From assembly GCA_022750155.1 (NCBI GenBank), contig JAKIWG010000006.1, positions 34,008 through 98,007 on the forward strand: 64,000 nt of DNA, in the 5' to 3' direction. The number at the start of each line of letters is the position of its first letter. Within the stretch, counting starts at the first letter, position 1. Under the pieces are notes generated by a model. The model did not search any database, was not told the DNA's origin, and saw only the letters and a list, made by a program, of their open reading frames with translations. Below, in pieces: positions 45,398 to 52,929 of the stretch. The stretch is from Thermoplasmata archaeon (lineage in GTDB: Archaea; Thermoplasmatota; Thermoplasmata; Lutacidiplasmatales; UBA184). A program made the translations under genes and the position numbers.

Positions 45398-45727
45398 ATG
45401 GGTCGTACGACCACGGACGCTTTCGCGTCCCCAGAACCCGTTCCCGCCGAATTCGCCGAACACCCGATCGTCCATGGGGCGTTCCGCCGGGTGGGACGCC
45501 TGCGACTCCCGCTCGGCCTTCACCACTCACCCTGGGCGACCCTCTACCGAATGCCCGACCACCGGCTCTTCTGGATCGTCCGGCTCTGGGAGGTGGACCG
45601 GCCGGTACGTCGATGCGTCGGCACGTCGACGATCCGGAGATTCTGTGACGTGAACCACCTGCCGGAGCTGCGGGCCCGTGTCGAAGAGCTCGTCGCGACG
45701 GCGGCGGATGGGGATGCGTCGGGCTGA
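45398..45727 (+). CDS. Small hypothetical protein preceding the HerA-like ATPase
   Basis: This 109-aa protein is not recognised. HPIVHGAFRRVGRLRLPLGLHHSPWATLYRMPDHRLFWIVRLWEVDRPVRRCVGTSTIRRFCDVNHLPELRARVEELVATA reads as a mixed alpha/beta, basic, tryptophan-containing globular domain. Its last 20 bases overlap the start of the large ATPase gene, implying coupled translation and a shared role. A short A/T patch (GTTTTCAA) lies directly before the ATG, too close for a TATA box, so the promoter is uncertain. Confidence 0.55.
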   Translation: MGRTTTDAFASPEPVPAEFAEHPIVHGAFRRVGRLRLPLGLHHSPWATLYRMPDHRLFWIVRLWEVDRPVRRCVGTSTIRRFCDVNHLPELRARVEELVATAADGDASG

Positions 45728-48374
45728 GGCACGCCGCAAGAACGCCGGAGCGATGTTGCGGACGTCCTCCCCCGGGTGGTCCGGTGCGTACCTGCGGGAG
45801 TTGGCGAGGTCGATCGCCGCCTCGCCGAGGGGCGTCCGGCTCCTGGTGCGCCAGCTCCCGAAGGCGGCCGGCCCGATCCTCCGGTCCGATCGCGAAGGCA
45901 TGGATTCGTTGCTCGGTGCCGCCGCCGCCCGAATCCCCGGCCGTGTGGAGTTCCTGGAGGCGGTCGATCCCCTGAAGGTCGAGCGCCGGGGTGAGGACCT
46001 CTGCCTCGCCGTCGTGCCCGATCCCGTACCGACGGCGGAGACCCCGCTCCCGGAGCGGTCGGCAGGGTTCGCCCGACATCGGTCCCGCGAGGAGGTGGTG
46101 CCCGCGGCCCGGACCGCTCCGATCGCGCCGGTCCCGGCCCTCGAATCCCCGCCGGGGCTCTCCGGGGAATCCCACGCCGTGTGGGAGTCCGAGGGGAATG
46201 GTCGACTTGCGGTGCGACTTAGGTCTCGGTGGAGCGGGCCCTCCCCGGAGCTCGCCCGTGAGCTCGCCGGTGTGACCGCGGGGATTCTGCGCCGGACCGA
46301 CGAGGCCGGGTTCCCGAGGGCGAAGGTGCTCGTTTCCCGGAGCCGGCGGGTCGTCGAGCGTGCCTGGTCGGATCCGTGGAGCCGGTGGCGGTTCCCGGGC
46401 CCTTCGTTCTCCGTCCTGCCCGAGGTGGCGGCCCGCGAGGTGAGCCTCCCCTCGCCGCGCGCGTTTCCGTCGCCGTCGGACCTGTTGCACCATGCGGTGG
46501 CGGTGGGGGCCTCCGGTTCAGGGAAGACCTCCTGGCTCGTCGGCGTAGCCCGTCAGGCCATCGAGCGCGGGACCGCGACCGTGATCCTCGACGTGCACGG
46601 GGACGTCGGTCCACGGCTCGTCGCCGGCCTCTCTCGGGAGGCGCGGGCGAGGGTCGTCGTCCTCGACCCGACCGACGATCGGAGCAGCCGCAGCGGGATC
46701 CGAGTCCTGGGAGGGAGCGGCGTCGCCCCCGAGGTGGAGGCGGCGCATCTCGTGGCCGCGCTGAAACGGCTCACCGGGGACGGCGGAGAGACGTTCTGGG
46801 GATTCCGGATGGAGCGGATCTTCGACACGTTCGTGCGCCGGGTCCAGGAGGAGGGGGGAACCCTGGTCGACCTGTTCGACCTGCTCACCGACCCCTCCCG
46901 GCGGGATGCGGCGCGGCTCGCGACGGCGATCCCCGCCGTCGCCCGGTTCCTGGAGGAGCTCCCGGCGATCCAGCAGCGGAATCCGGAGTACCTGGCGCCC
47001 GCGGCCGCGCGGATCGCCAAGGTGCTGCTCCGCGACGAGCTGACGCGGCTACTGGCCCCCGCCGACGCCGGCCTGCCCATCGACCTCCTGCTGGAACAGG
47101 GTCGATCCGTGCTGATCCGTGTGCCGATCGGCGCGCTGGGTCCTGAAGCGAGCAGCTTCGCCTCGACCCTCCTCGTGAGCCGACTCTACCTCGGCCGCAC
47201 CGCGTCCCCCATCGAGGCCGTCCCCCGGCTCCGGTCGCTGTTCGTCATCGACGAGGCGTCGAGCGTCTCGCCGAAGATCCTCTCGGAGATCCTCTCCGAG
47301 GGGCGGAAGTTCGGCGTCGGGCTCCTCCTCGCGACCCAGTACCCGGAACGCCTATCGATGGAGCTGAGGGCGGCCGCAGCCGGGGCCGCCGGGAGCCACC
47401 TCGCCTTCCGCATCCCCCGGGCCTCGGCATCCCAGTCGGGGAGCTGGGTTGGGCTGTCGCCTGGCGAGGCCGTCGAGCTGCTACCGAACCTGCCGGCCGG
47501 CTCCGCCGTCCTGTCGGCGCGGGACGACGGGAGTGCCCGGCGCGTCCTTGAGGTCGGGCCTTCGCCTGCACCGGATCCGGAGGGTTGGGCCGATGCGCTC
47601 CGGGCGACGGCCACGGAGTTCCCGGGGTCGGCCGAATCGACGGGGGGATCCGAAGCGGGCTTCGATTCCGAGATGCTGTTCGCCATCCTCGGGCTCGAGG
47701 CACGAAGGGAACTCGCCGACGCGGCGAACGTGGGCCGATGGCTTCACGACGCTCCGACGGGGGGGGTGGACCCGGCGGCCGTCCCGGCCCGATTGCCGAT
47801 CCTCGAGCGGCGTGGTTGGATCGACGGCGGTACGACCGGAGGCTGGCGGGTCACGGGTGCCGGGCGTCGCTACCTCGCCTGTGACGGGCGCACGGGGGCC
47901 TCCCGGGAGACGTCGGAGCACCGCGCGTTGCTGCTGGGCGCGTTCCAACGCATGGCGGCGAAAGGATACCGAGTGGAGATCCTCCGACAGGGACGGTTCG
48001 ACACGCGCCTTCCGGACGCCCGGCTCTGCCAGCTTCCCCGGGGTTCGGGCCTGGCGGTGACCCCCGTCGCCTGGGCGGGTCGCGTCGACCGCGCCCGCGT
48101 CGGGTGGGCCTGGCGGTTCTTCAGAGGGCGCGATGTCTTCTTCGAGGCCGAGGTCTCCGGGGCGACCCGGCGCGAACGGATCCGCCACGACGTAACGAAG
48201 GCGGAGCGGGCCGAAGCGTTTCTCGTGGTGCTGGTCTCCGACGCGGCGCGCGCCCGTTCCGTCCGACGCGCGCTGCGAGAGCTCACCGAGGTGCCCCACT
48301 CGGCCCAGGTCTGGATGATCCCCGAAGCGGCGGCGCTCCGCCCGGGCGGATCGTTGCCTCCCGAGGCGAGGTAA
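45708..48374 (+). CDS. HerA/VirD4-like ATPase with winged-helix and nuclease-like C-terminal regions
   Basis: The 888-aa protein (ATG 45708, overlapping the previous gene) has an N-terminal helical domain and then a FtsK/HerA-superfamily ATPase. Walker A is AVGASGSGKTSWLVG (near residue 265), followed by TVILDVHGDVGPRLV, Walker B RSLFVIDEASSVSP and GVGLLLATQYPERLS. The arrangement resembles TraG/VirD4 and archaeal HerA-like pumps that move DNA. After about residue 640 come a winged-helix-like segment (PARLPILERRGWIDGGTTGGWRVTGAGRRYL) and a domain with LPDARLCQLP, FFEAEVSG and DVTKAERAEAFLVV. That last order (PD, ExE, K) recalls the PD-(D/E)XK-like C-terminus of plasmid replication-relaxation proteins. 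It may have come from a mobile element. Confidence 0.75.
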   Translation: MGMRRAEARRKNAGAMLRTSSPGWSGAYLRELARSIAASPRGVRLLVRQLPKAAGPILRSDREGMDSLLGAAAARIPGRVEFLEAVDPLKVERRGEDLCLAVVPDPVPTAETPLPERSAGFARHRSREEVVPAARTAPIAPVPALESPPGLSGESHAVWESEGNGRLAVRLRSRWSGPSPELARELAGVTAGILRRTDEAGFPRAKVLVSRSRRVVERAWSDPWSRWRFPGPSFSVLPEVAAREVSLPSPRAFPSPSDLLHHAVAVGASGSGKTSWLVGVARQAIERGTATVILDVHGDVGPRLVAGLSREARARVVVLDPTDDRSSRSGIRVLGGSGVAPEVEAAHLVAALKRLTGDGGETFWGFRMERIFDTFVRRVQEEGGTLVDLFDLLTDPSRRDAARLATAIPAVARFLEELPAIQQRNPEYLAPAAARIAKVLLRDELTRLLAPADAGLPIDLLLEQGRSVLIRVPIGALGPEASSFASTLLVSRLYLGRTASPIEAVPRLRSLFVIDEASSVSPKILSEILSEGRKFGVGLLLATQYPERLSMELRAAAAGAAGSHLAFRIPRASASQSGSWVGLSPGEAVELLPNLPAGSAVLSARDDGSARRVLEVGPSPAPDPEGWADALRATATEFPGSAESTGGSEAGFDSEMLFAILGLEARRELADAANVGRWLHDAPTGGVDPAAVPARLPILERRGWIDGGTTGGWRVTGAGRRYLACDGRTGASRETSEHRALLLGAFQRMAAKGYRVEILRQGRFDTRLPDARLCQLPRGSGLAVTPVAWAGRVDRARVGWAWRFFRGRDVFFEAEVSGATRRERIRHDVTKAERAEAFLVVLVSDAARARSVRRALRELTEVPHSAQVWMIPEAAALRPGGSLPPEAR

Positions 48375-48415: not shown

Positions 48416-48955
48416 GTGCGTGCGTTCATCGCGATCGAGGTCCCGCCCCTCCCGCACGACCCCGGGGAGGAGACGAGGAAGGGCGGCAACTCCGCCCACC
48501 TCACCCTGCGATTCTTTGAGGACCTCGACGAACGGCGGCTGCCTCAGGTCGTCGCCGCGCTCGATCGGGCGGCGCGATCGACCTCGTCGTTCCGGTTGGC
48601 CCTGGAAGGACTCGGGGCGTTCCCGAACGCCCGATCGCCCCGGGTGCTCTGGGTCGGCCTAGGGCTCGGGCGGGAGCACGCGATCGCCCTGGCCGGCCGA
48701 GTCTCCGCGGAACTGGAGGCGATCGGATTCGCCCCGGAACCGCGGGGATTCACGCCCCACGTCACGCTGTTCCGCGTCCGCAACGCTCGCGACCGCGACC
48801 GGGCCCTCCGCTTGCTCTCCTCGGGCGTGGGGGTCCGGTATGGGGAGACGACAATCCGCGAACTCGTCCTGAAGGAGAGTCTACTGAGCCGCACCGGAGC
48901 GGTCCACCAGGTCCTCCACCGAGGCGCCCTCCCCGATGCGCCCGGATCGCCCTAG
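48416..48955 (+). CDS. thpR: RNA 2',3'-cyclic phosphodiesterase (ThpR/LigT family)
   Basis: The 179-aa protein has the 2H phosphoesterase layout: MRAFIAIEVP start, first HxT motif SAHLTLRFFEDL and second motif FTPHVTLFRVRN. It ends with the usual LVLKESLLSRTGAVHQVL. ThpR hydrolyses 2',3'-cyclic phosphate ends of RNA and is common in archaea. The GTG start (48416) gives the canonical N-terminus. The gene is convergent with the AlkA-type glycosylase and the stops overlap by 4 bp. The gap to the HerA-like gene is 41 nt. Confidence 0.93.
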   Translation: MRAFIAIEVPPLPHDPGEETRKGGNSAHLTLRFFEDLDERRLPQVVAALDRAARSTSSFRLALEGLGAFPNARSPRVLWVGLGLGREHAIALAGRVSAELEAIGFAPEPRGFTPHVTLFRVRNARDRDRALRLLSSGVGVRYGETTIRELVLKESLLSRTGAVHQVLHRGALPDAPGSP

Positions 48956-49911: not shown

Positions 49912-50079
49912 TCTCGGCTCCAACTTCCCTCCCTCTATGAGATTCTCCACCCGCGCCTCTTCACCGTTCACGCGAACGGGCTCGTGCGACGCGCCGACGA
50001 CACCCTTAATCCGCTGTGGACCCGATGCCCGCGTTCCGAGCCGGAGGCCCCGGGGCGGCGGCCAGTCGGCGGGACGGTC

Positions 50080-52929
50080 ATGCGAGGGAGCGCCAGGAGT
50101 CGGGCAGCCGTCCACGCGCTTCGGAGGTACCGTAAGGGGCCGCTGTTGGTCCTCGCGCTCCTGCTCGTGCTCTCCACCCTCCCCACACCATCCTACGCAG
50201 AGGGCAGCGGGTTGGCCGGCACTCCCCTCCCCGCGTCCCGCCCGTCCGCCATCACGACCGGCCCCTGCCCAGGGAGCTCAATCCCATCGCGGTTCTCTGC
50301 GCAGCTCGGGGTGGAAGGGTCGGCGTCCTCGCCCCCGAGCGTGGCGGGAGTCTCCCTGTCGATCTCGTACTACTACACGTGGAACGATACTCCGAAAGGC
50401 GGCCCTTCGAGCCTGCGCTGCGTCGCATCGACCACGACCAACATCACGGACCTCTCCGGCGCCACCGTCCTGTCCGCGCCCGTCCCGCTGACCTCGTGTG
50501 GCGGGGGCGGCTGCTCGACGTATGTCGGGCCGTACGGCGACCTGAGCTTCGGAACGACCGGGGCGACCCCACCCGGCTATTTCCTGACGAGCGAGCGGAG
50601 CGGGACGTCGGTCGCCCTGGAGTTCGTCCTCGCGCTCTCCACCCTCTCCCTCGCGCCGTTCGGGCGCACGGTCGTGAGCGTCCTCGCTCCCACCCTGATC
50701 CGCGCGCTGGCCGAATCCGGCAACGGGGGACCGAGCCCCGCGAACCTGTCGTACGATTGGCACCTCACCGGTTCCGGCTGGTCGGTCGACTCAGGGTACG
50801 GGTGGTCGTCGCTCACGGTCACCGCGGCGGTCGGAGCGGGCCCTGCGACGGTCGGGCTCTGGACGAACGGCTCGTACAACGGGACCGCGGTCTCCGAGGG
50901 ACCGGTGACCCTCGACCTGAGCGCCGTGTCGACCGCCCTGTCCAGCGAGAGCGTCGTTCCGACCTCGCTGGATGCGGGAGAGCTCACGACCGTGTCGGTT
51001 ACGGGAACGGGCTCGGGGGGGTACCCCTACACCGCGCAGTTCCTTCCGGGCCTCGGGGCATCTCCCACCAACGCCACGTGCTCCGCGTCGGTGGTCGTGG
51101 GGGGCCTCGTCGACGTGAGCTGTTCGGCGAGCCTCACCTACTCGCGATCGGGGGACGCGCAACCGTCGGTGAACCTGACGAACGGATTCTCCACCGCGAG
51201 CGCATCCCTACCGAAGGTGACCGTCGCCCCGGCCCTCGGGGTCGTCGTAAGCCCATCCTCGGTGCAGACGTACCTTGAGACCCCCACCCGGATCATGGTC
51301 TCCAGCGCTCCCGGGAGCGGGACCCCTCCGTACGGACCGGCGTGCCTCTCCACCGGAGACTCACGCCTGTTCTGCGACAACTCCACCGGGGGCCCTTGGC
51401 CGTTCGACGTCAGCTGGGGCAGGACCGGGACCCTCGGGGCCATCGCCACCGTCCTCGACACGGCCGGCGTGAACCGCTCGGTAGGGTTCGCCGTCGAGGT
51501 CGTGGCACGGCCCGCCCTGACTCCGATCGTGCCGAGTACCCAGTCGGTGAACGTGGGGCAGCCGGTCAACCTATCCTCCTACGTCTCCGGAGGGGCGTAT
51601 CCGGTCGAGTACTGGTGGAACGACTCCAACCCCGCGGGAACCGTCTACGGCGGCGCGGTCGAGCGCCCGGCGCCGCTACAGGTCGAATTCACCCCGTCGA
51701 TCGGGGGGCTCCACAACCTCACGCTCACGGCCCTCGATTCGCTCGGGACCGAGAAGAGCGAGCGGATCTCGATCATCGTCCACCTGGGTCCGGCGTACGC
51801 GATCGCCCCGGTCCTGGGGCTGCCGAACGCCAGCGACCCGGCCGGTTCCCCCTGGCGTTTGGCTCTCGAGAGCGTCGACCTGCTCGGCGAGCGGGTCCCC
51901 TTCAATGATTCGAACGAGAGCCTTCAATTCTATTTCGGAACCGTCGCGTCGGTCGGCCCGACGTGGGTGAACGACTCGGAAGGCGCGCACCTGTTCGACG
52001 CCGGAAGCAATCTGACGCGCTTCTCGCTCCCGGTCCCCCGCTCGGCGTGGAGCGAGGGGCTGCTGAACGTCTCCGTCACGCCGACCCGGCTCGGCATTCT
52101 CGACGTGTTCCTCTCCGGGCCGCTCCCGAGCACGCCGGCCTCCTCCGGCCGGCTCGGGTTCGCCGTCACGGCCGACACCGCCCATCTACACCTGAGCGGG
52201 CCGAGGTATGTCGTGCCCGGGGACCGGTCGAACTCCACCCTCTACCGGATTGCCGACCGTTTCGGAAACTCGGCCCCGATGATCTCCCTCACCCTGCACG
52301 AGAAGTTCGGCTCCGACGACCTCGTCTCGAACCCGACCTCGGTGGGGAACGCCTCGGCGAGCTCGGTCTGGGTCAACTTCACCGCCCCCTCCCGGGCCGC
52401 GGGTACGGTGGAGGTCGACGGCCCGTCCGGGGCCGTACTCCTCTCCATTCGGGTCCCGGGCGCTCCCGCCCCCGCGATCACCTCGTGGATCGTGGGGGGG
52501 CTCGTCGTCGCCGTGCTCGGGGTGGGCCTCACCGGGTACGGTTACCGGCGGCACCGGAGATCGGCCGCCCTCGCGCGCTCCTCGCCGGACGTCACCGAGG
52601 ACGACCTGCGTCGACTCGCCGAAGGCCGGGCCCACGTCCTCTCGCGGTCGCGGACGGACCGTCCGGTCCCGATCTCCGATCTCGGGCGCGAGTTCCCGGG
52701 GGCTCCGCCTTCCGGGGCCGAGCTCGCCGAGTGGGTCGGCTCGCTCGTGGCCGAAGGGGCGCTACGCGCCGTGCTCGGGGCCGACGGGAGACCGGGTTTT
52801 GTGCGGGTCCCGGAACCGGCATCGCCGACGATCCCCCGCGTCGACCTCGACCCGAGGGCGCTCGACCATGCGCTCGCCGCCCGCGACCACGACGAGCGCC
52901 CGGAGCCGCCGTCGACCGGCGGGGGCTGA
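50080..52929 (+). CDS. Giant Ig-like surface protein with TM and cytoplasmic winged-helix-like tail
   Basis: The 949-aa protein (ATG 50080) has a signal peptide (GPLLVLALLLVLSTLPTPSYA) and then about 760 residues of Ig/PKD-like repeats with NxT sequons (for example LTTVSVTGTGSGGYPYTAQFLPG and PVNLSSYVSGGAYPVEYWWND). One TM (SWIVGGLVVAVLGVGLTGYGY) is followed by KRRH-type basic residues. The about 110-residue tail holds RPVPISDLGREFPGAPPSGAELAEWVGSLVAEGALRAVLGADGRPGFVRV, which reads as a winged helix. The design parallels 17970-19286: long ectodomain, one TM, regulatory tail. It may be a membrane-bound transcription factor, but the tail's HTH is weaker than in the other protein. Confidence 0.75.
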   Translation: MRGSARSRAAVHALRRYRKGPLLVLALLLVLSTLPTPSYAEGSGLAGTPLPASRPSAITTGPCPGSSIPSRFSAQLGVEGSASSPPSVAGVSLSISYYYTWNDTPKGGPSSLRCVASTTTNITDLSGATVLSAPVPLTSCGGGGCSTYVGPYGDLSFGTTGATPPGYFLTSERSGTSVALEFVLALSTLSLAPFGRTVVSVLAPTLIRALAESGNGGPSPANLSYDWHLTGSGWSVDSGYGWSSLTVTAAVGAGPATVGLWTNGSYNGTAVSEGPVTLDLSAVSTALSSESVVPTSLDAGELTTVSVTGTGSGGYPYTAQFLPGLGASPTNATCSASVVVGGLVDVSCSASLTYSRSGDAQPSVNLTNGFSTASASLPKVTVAPALGVVVSPSSVQTYLETPTRIMVSSAPGSGTPPYGPACLSTGDSRLFCDNSTGGPWPFDVSWGRTGTLGAIATVLDTAGVNRSVGFAVEVVARPALTPIVPSTQSVNVGQPVNLSSYVSGGAYPVEYWWNDSNPAGTVYGGAVERPAPLQVEFTPSIGGLHNLTLTALDSLGTEKSERISIIVHLGPAYAIAPVLGLPNASDPAGSPWRLALESVDLLGERVPFNDSNESLQFYFGTVASVGPTWVNDSEGAHLFDAGSNLTRFSLPVPRSAWSEGLLNVSVTPTRLGILDVFLSGPLPSTPASSGRLGFAVTADTAHLHLSGPRYVVPGDRSNSTLYRIADRFGNSAPMISLTLHEKFGSDDLVSNPTSVGNASASSVWVNFTAPSRAAGTVEVDGPSGAVLLSIRVPGAPAPAITSWIVGGLVVAVLGVGLTGYGYRRHRRSAALARSSPDVTEDDLRRLAEGRAHVLSRSRTDRPVPISDLGREFPGAPPSGAELAEWVGSLVAEGALRAVLGADGRPGFVRVPEPASPTIPRVDLDPRALDHALAARDHDERPEPPSTGGG

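Follow-up and report, generated by a model that had tools for sequence, protein, structure and literature searches.

The window, the whole 64,000-nucleotide stretch of Thermoplasmata DNA that was analyzed, encodes on its + strand a soluble DNA pump in which a TrwB/VirD4-type motor is joined to a winged helix and a predicted C-terminal PD-(D/E)XK-like domain. We give about even chances to the reading that this protein is a domesticated, single-chain version of a plasmid pair, a coupling-protein pump plus a replication-relaxation protein, which would serve in chromosomal DNA processing. The source genome is a Thermoplasmata MAG of 2.1 Mb and the window has ~60-73% GC; the type genus of the Lutacidiplasmatales has ~69% GC and a genome of ~2.1 Mb (PMC9287336). 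Relatives of the pump were found in UBA184-type MAGs and in acidic-soil 'Thermoplasmata archaeon' MAGs, which would fit this order, and orthologues are 34-59% identical over their full length. Conservation is highest in the C-terminal domain, with a mean column identity of 70% as compared to 44% for the full-length pump.

The gene pair and the motor

Two overlapping ORFs on the + strand, 45398-45727 and 45678-48374, were both found to be real. The longest frame of the pump in the ORF list (45678-48374) has a GTG start and 898 codons, and all residue numbers given here, such as H748 and K841, refer to this frame. Among related loci, 36 have a pump start that overlaps the stop of the small upstream gene, mostly by 4 or ~14 nt, and the ATG at 45714 in the window gives an overlap of exactly 14 nt. 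This conserved overlap suggests that the gene most likely extends over 45714..48374 (+) and that the pump product is probably 886 aa long, starting at this ATG and not at GTG 45678.

The small gene (45398..45727, +) encodes 109 aa. Its product has a beta-rich stretch, 'GrvRlPlagpYRPwArLyrlPDGRllWxvRLWevDRaV', followed by predicted helices, and had no match in Pfam, NCBIfam, PADLOC or PHROGs. A homologue lies directly upstream of the pump in 36 of the 50 informative loci (36/54 overall, four loci being cut off by contig ends), which supports the earlier note's proposal that this gene is a partner of the pump. At the other loci the small gene is missing or replaced by another ORF, indicating that the pump can do without it. 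As judged from these loci, the small gene is a partner whose translation is coupled to that of the pump and which is dispensable. Four loci (L117, L118, L125 and L127) carry a different conserved ORF (TEPEL..AIERTLVAHGRIP..) in its place, which ends at or near the pump start.

The N-terminal part of the pump is a poorly conserved alpha/beta domain without a transmembrane helix (45747..46370, +; residues ~24-231 of the 898-aa frame, from AF2 secondary structure). It is followed by a RecA-fold motor (46470..47552, +), delimited by a PF10412 match, a Foldseek match to TrwB and invariant residues, with the Walker A motif GASGSGKT (277-284), the Walker B motif FVIDEAS (522-528) and the sensor ATQYP (552-556). 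Within the motor, a helical insert at residues ~340-475 (46695..47102, +; AF2 helices 351-473) stands where coupling proteins have their all-alpha domain. The motor matched TrwB_AAD_bind (PF10412) above the Pfam cut-off (35.3 bits, cut-off 20.5), as did 15 of 16 orthologues. The best Foldseek match of the full AF2 model (pLDDT 83.7) was TrwB (1e9s, E 3.4e-11), ahead of HerA and VirB4, aligned over ~420 columns with a TM-score of 0.6 by target. These results bear out the assignment to the DNA-pump class. The description as HerA/VirD4-like held for its VirD4 half, whereas HerA/DUF87 (PF01935) stayed below cut-off (19.2 vs 23.2 bits) and the HerA equivalog models gave 12-19 bits against cut-offs of 800-970. 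The protein shares the motor fold and the PF10412 match with TrwB/VirD4 coupling proteins; unlike them it has no N-terminal membrane anchor and no T4SS partners that we found, and it carries a C-terminal nuclease-like fusion. No transmembrane segment was detected in 18 orthologues (no hydrophobic 19-mer above 1.8), and the hydropathy maximum of the whole pump protein is 1.15.

The C-terminal domain and replication-relaxation proteins

The winged helix that the earlier note had seen was confirmed at residues ~655-735 (47640..47882, +), where Foldseek of the C-terminal model returned DtxR/IdeR winged helices with a probability of 0.98-1.00. Behind it, residues ~740-882 (47895..48323, +) form a domain that is predicted from conservation, AF2 and profile comparison to be PD-(D/E)XK-like and related to Replic_Relax. 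Residues H748, P779-D780, E823, E825, R834 and K841 are invariant across 50 pump sequences, one per genome, so that nuclease-type residues are indeed conserved. The motifs named in the earlier note, LPDARL (778-783), FFEAEVSG (821-828) and a lysine after them (K841), are all present, and the residues are conserved far beyond chance; only the claim that the lysine has the spacing of replication-relaxation proteins did not hold literally. In the pump 43 residues separate PD from E and 18 separate E from K, as compared to about 23 and 14 in Replic_Relax. The AF2 model of residues 640-898 (pLDDT 87) shows the winged helix and then alpha-beta-beta-(two helices)-beta-alpha-beta, an order of secondary structure equal to that of the PD-(D/E)XK core.

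Foldseek with the winged helix plus nuclease model placed only winged-helix and methyltransferase-type matches on top, with no significant nuclease match, and against viral structures the C-terminal model gave weak matches. The C-terminal domain alone had no direct match in Pfam, PDB or PHROGs, and PF13814 did not match the pump over the Pfam cut-off. A single-sequence scan of genome contigs gave nothing. Since Foldseek recognized only the winged helix, we base the fold assignment on motif, topology and profile evidence. In the model K841 lies on the helix after strand 3 and not in a canonical E-x-K, and this position makes the activity of the domain uncertain. The domain could be a catalytically dead, DNA-binding remnant and the pump only a translocase, for example in chromosome segregation, as the missing canonical (D/E)-x-K and the lack of a significant nuclease fold match would suggest. 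We consider this improbable because residues of catalytic type are invariant in the lineage and the same pattern recurs in distant families, which is unexpected for a dead domain.

Among plasmid proteins, the pump's best relatives are coupling-protein-like ATPases. On plasmids of Embleya, Bacillus subtilis, B. methanolicus, Priestia and Staphylococcus, the gene after the related pump is annotated as a 'replication-relaxation family protein', and the Embleya downstream protein is a clear member of PF13814 (E 2.7e-36). Six further plasmid genes so annotated directly adjoin an ATPase gene on their upstream side, while no replication-relaxation gene follows the related pump in Rhodococcus, Sulfitobacter or Streptomyces fungicidicus. 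On Gram-positive plasmids (L272-L277) the ATPase gene upstream touches or overlaps the replication-relaxation gene, and the two form a tight conserved pair. When plasmid replication-relaxation proteins were aligned, H, PD, E and K were found to be invariant.

We compared the domains by hhalign. A class-level profile of the archaeal C-terminal core, built from sequences chosen by a motif expression, matched the Replic_Relax core with a probability of 88-93% (P 2e-7 to 3e-6), and pump ends from outside the Lutacidiplasmatales matched the PF13814 core with P 2e-7 to 8e-7. None of 199 column shuffles reached the score, all staying at or below 21 as compared to the observed 38-42, and the NurA profile scored 15 against the C-terminal domain, which is no match. 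The domain of f1, the family of the window's genome, had no significant match of its own to Replic_Relax, either when aligned directly by hhalign to six Replic_Relax proteins or when the f1 subset was used in the core comparison; a match came only with the more diverse class-level profile. The f1 domain did match that of f19, another family of the class (P 1.7e-5), and the link from f1 to Replic_Relax runs via f19 and via the position that the domains have in common, at the end of homologous motors. The suspected relation of the nuclease-like end to replication-relaxation proteins is thereby supported at the level of the class. We conclude from these profile comparisons that the domain class is probably homologous to Replic_Relax and that the f1 member is linked to it through its relatives.

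Because a PF13814 gene lies directly downstream of the related plasmid pump, the archaeal protein would correspond to a fusion of that pair with its gene order kept. The two share the motor class, the order of pump, winged helix and PD..E-x-[DE]..K domain, and the aligned motifs. They differ in that the plasmids have two genes amid transfer genes, whereas the archaeal pump is one chromosomal polypeptide with no transfer genes and no transmembrane helix, and in that PD and ExE lie ~20 residues further apart in the f1 domain. Our literature search found no paper on this pump-nuclease protein and none explaining the role of replication-relaxation proteins.

Chromosomal setting and distribution

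Genomes of the genus and the family repeatedly show the gene order HxlR, small gene, pump, ThpR, (AlkA), Ig-like, SHMT. Within 6 kb of the pump we found HxlR in 36/40 loci, SHMT in 34/39 and the Ig-like gene in 33/39, while AlkA was present in only 20/39 and no repair gene was a constant neighbor. The gene for a ThpR/LigT-type 2H phosphoesterase (48416..48955, +; PF02834, E 7.7e-20) lies directly downstream of the pump in 44 of 56 loci and is probably in the same transcription unit. At 49984-52929 the window encodes a probable surface protein of 981 aa, which is syntenic with the pump in 33/39 loci. Its Ig-like similarity is weak, and it has a hydrophobic stretch toward its C-terminus as well as a short tail. 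The neighbors are metabolic or housekeeping genes. No integrase or transposase was found among the neighbors scanned, no tRNA near 44-49 kb, and no defence or transfer genes in the neighborhood. Mobile-element borders around the pump were considered and rejected, the synteny being fixed.

The earlier note had called a pump with such an end typical of mobile elements or DNA-defence systems. A single-copy gene in conserved chromosomal synteny, without mobile or defence neighbors, is what the note itself had named as a refutation, and this reading is not supported. HerA-nuclease defence complexes do exist (PDB matches 8zit, 8sub and 8xav), and a HerA-like pump with its own nuclease might degrade foreign DNA. 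PADLOC gave partial matches over the motor (mad8 and HerA models) and no full-length match to a defence model. Defence genes are usually patchy and clustered, whereas the pump is near-core, single-copy and syntenic without defence neighbors, and we regard an anti-invader role as quite improbable.

The pump might instead act as coupling protein and as DNA-processing enzyme in a DNA-exchange system that is live or domesticated (Ced/Ted-like or conjugative) and has its membrane channel and pilus encoded elsewhere in the genome. The motor is closest to coupling proteins and its plasmid relatives sit among conjugation genes; the top NCBIfam matches are the CedD and CedB models, although far below cut-off (32.8 and 25.1 bits against cut-offs of 600 and 700). 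We nevertheless judge this unlikely, since none of the 18 orthologues has a transmembrane segment, no transfer gene is near the pump, and VirB6 (PF04610) and the VirB4 N-domain (PF03135) had no match in 31 same-genus genomes, although channel proteins of archaea could have diverged beyond the reach of these models. CedB and CedD of crenarchaeal DNA import resemble the pump in being chromosomal archaeal motors of the FtsK-HerA superfamily, and in the parts of the two sources drawn on here they are not described with a nuclease end (PMC11868833, PMC9905601). Of the domesticated archaeal transfer motors described so far, those of Ced and Ted come closest; these systems have VirB4-like ATPases and, as far as those parts go, no nuclease fusion (PMC11868833, PMC9905601). 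No CedA-type neighbor of the pump was identified.

With essentially one copy per genome, the C-terminal domain was detected in 54 of the 70 listed same-genus MAGs and, by our own count, in about 23 of the 26 that are at least 90% complete; it was found in none of the viral contigs searched. Homologous pumps of the families f11, f19 and f27 mostly end in the same H..PD..E-x-E..K domain, some pumps of the class lacking the motif by pattern search and the domain not being proven for each one. In family f3 a frame break divides this domain. In a genome of the same order (G038, L051:8610-11149) a frame change after LDQEDLKNPPL splits the nuclease end of the pump, which is either a mistake of assembly or a genuine frameshift. 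Widespread in the genus is a second pump, a paralogue of ~812-880 aa that lacks the nuclease (L170:8123-10561; in the source genome, G000 C50:27815-29152) and adjoins KaiC-like, PAC2, fibrillarin and ribosomal L15e/L10 genes. Bacillus phage G gp156 (L261:6864-9341) is distantly related to the pump and has an HNH gene next to it; the top viral Foldseek match of the C-terminal model, which was not significant, was gp146, at a distance of ten genes.

A possible chromosomal role and its meaning

NurA was not found in f1 with two profiles (PF09376 and a class-level profile), whereas it is present in other families of the class. Family f1 keeps a separate, orphan HerA. In the source genome this canonical-type HerA (L171:8499-9953, G000 C20) stands alone beside MCM, NMD3 and DUF7121 without NurA, which went undetected in the whole family; a NurA hidden beside it was considered and rejected, as the frames there look like antisense artefacts. 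The pump resembles HerA-NurA of archaeal end resection in combining a DNA pump with a nuclease. It differs as follows: NurA, whose profile does not match the pump's C-terminal domain, acts in trans; the pump motor has the TrwB-type helical insert; and the pump genomes also keep the separate HerA.

If the pump is the domesticated plasmid pair, it would have descended from a mobile element and would assemble in the cytosol into an ATP-driven ring that translocates DNA. At the exit of the ring, the winged helix and the PD-(D/E)XK-like domain would bind the strand and nick or trim it, so that pumping would be coupled to cutting. The chromosomal role would be DNA processing, for example end resection or recombination, and this is plausible because f1 keeps HerA but shows no NurA, while other families have NurA. 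A tentative variant is that a class-wide archaeal fused motor-nuclease, which pumps and cuts DNA and has a small coupled regulator, took over the HerA-NurA task after NurA was lost. Replacement of NurA as the ancestral role was rejected, since f19 has both NurA and such a pump.

Many conjugative plasmids have a replication-relaxation protein next to the pump. That the two are fused in nature suggests that both act together on the same DNA. The fusion offers a testable single-chain enzyme and a possible replacement for NurA. The pump looks like a plasmid-transfer machine tamed for a chromosomal job in soil Thermoplasmata archaea, a conjugation-type motor that would have been retained as near-core chromosomal machinery in the Thermoplasmata.
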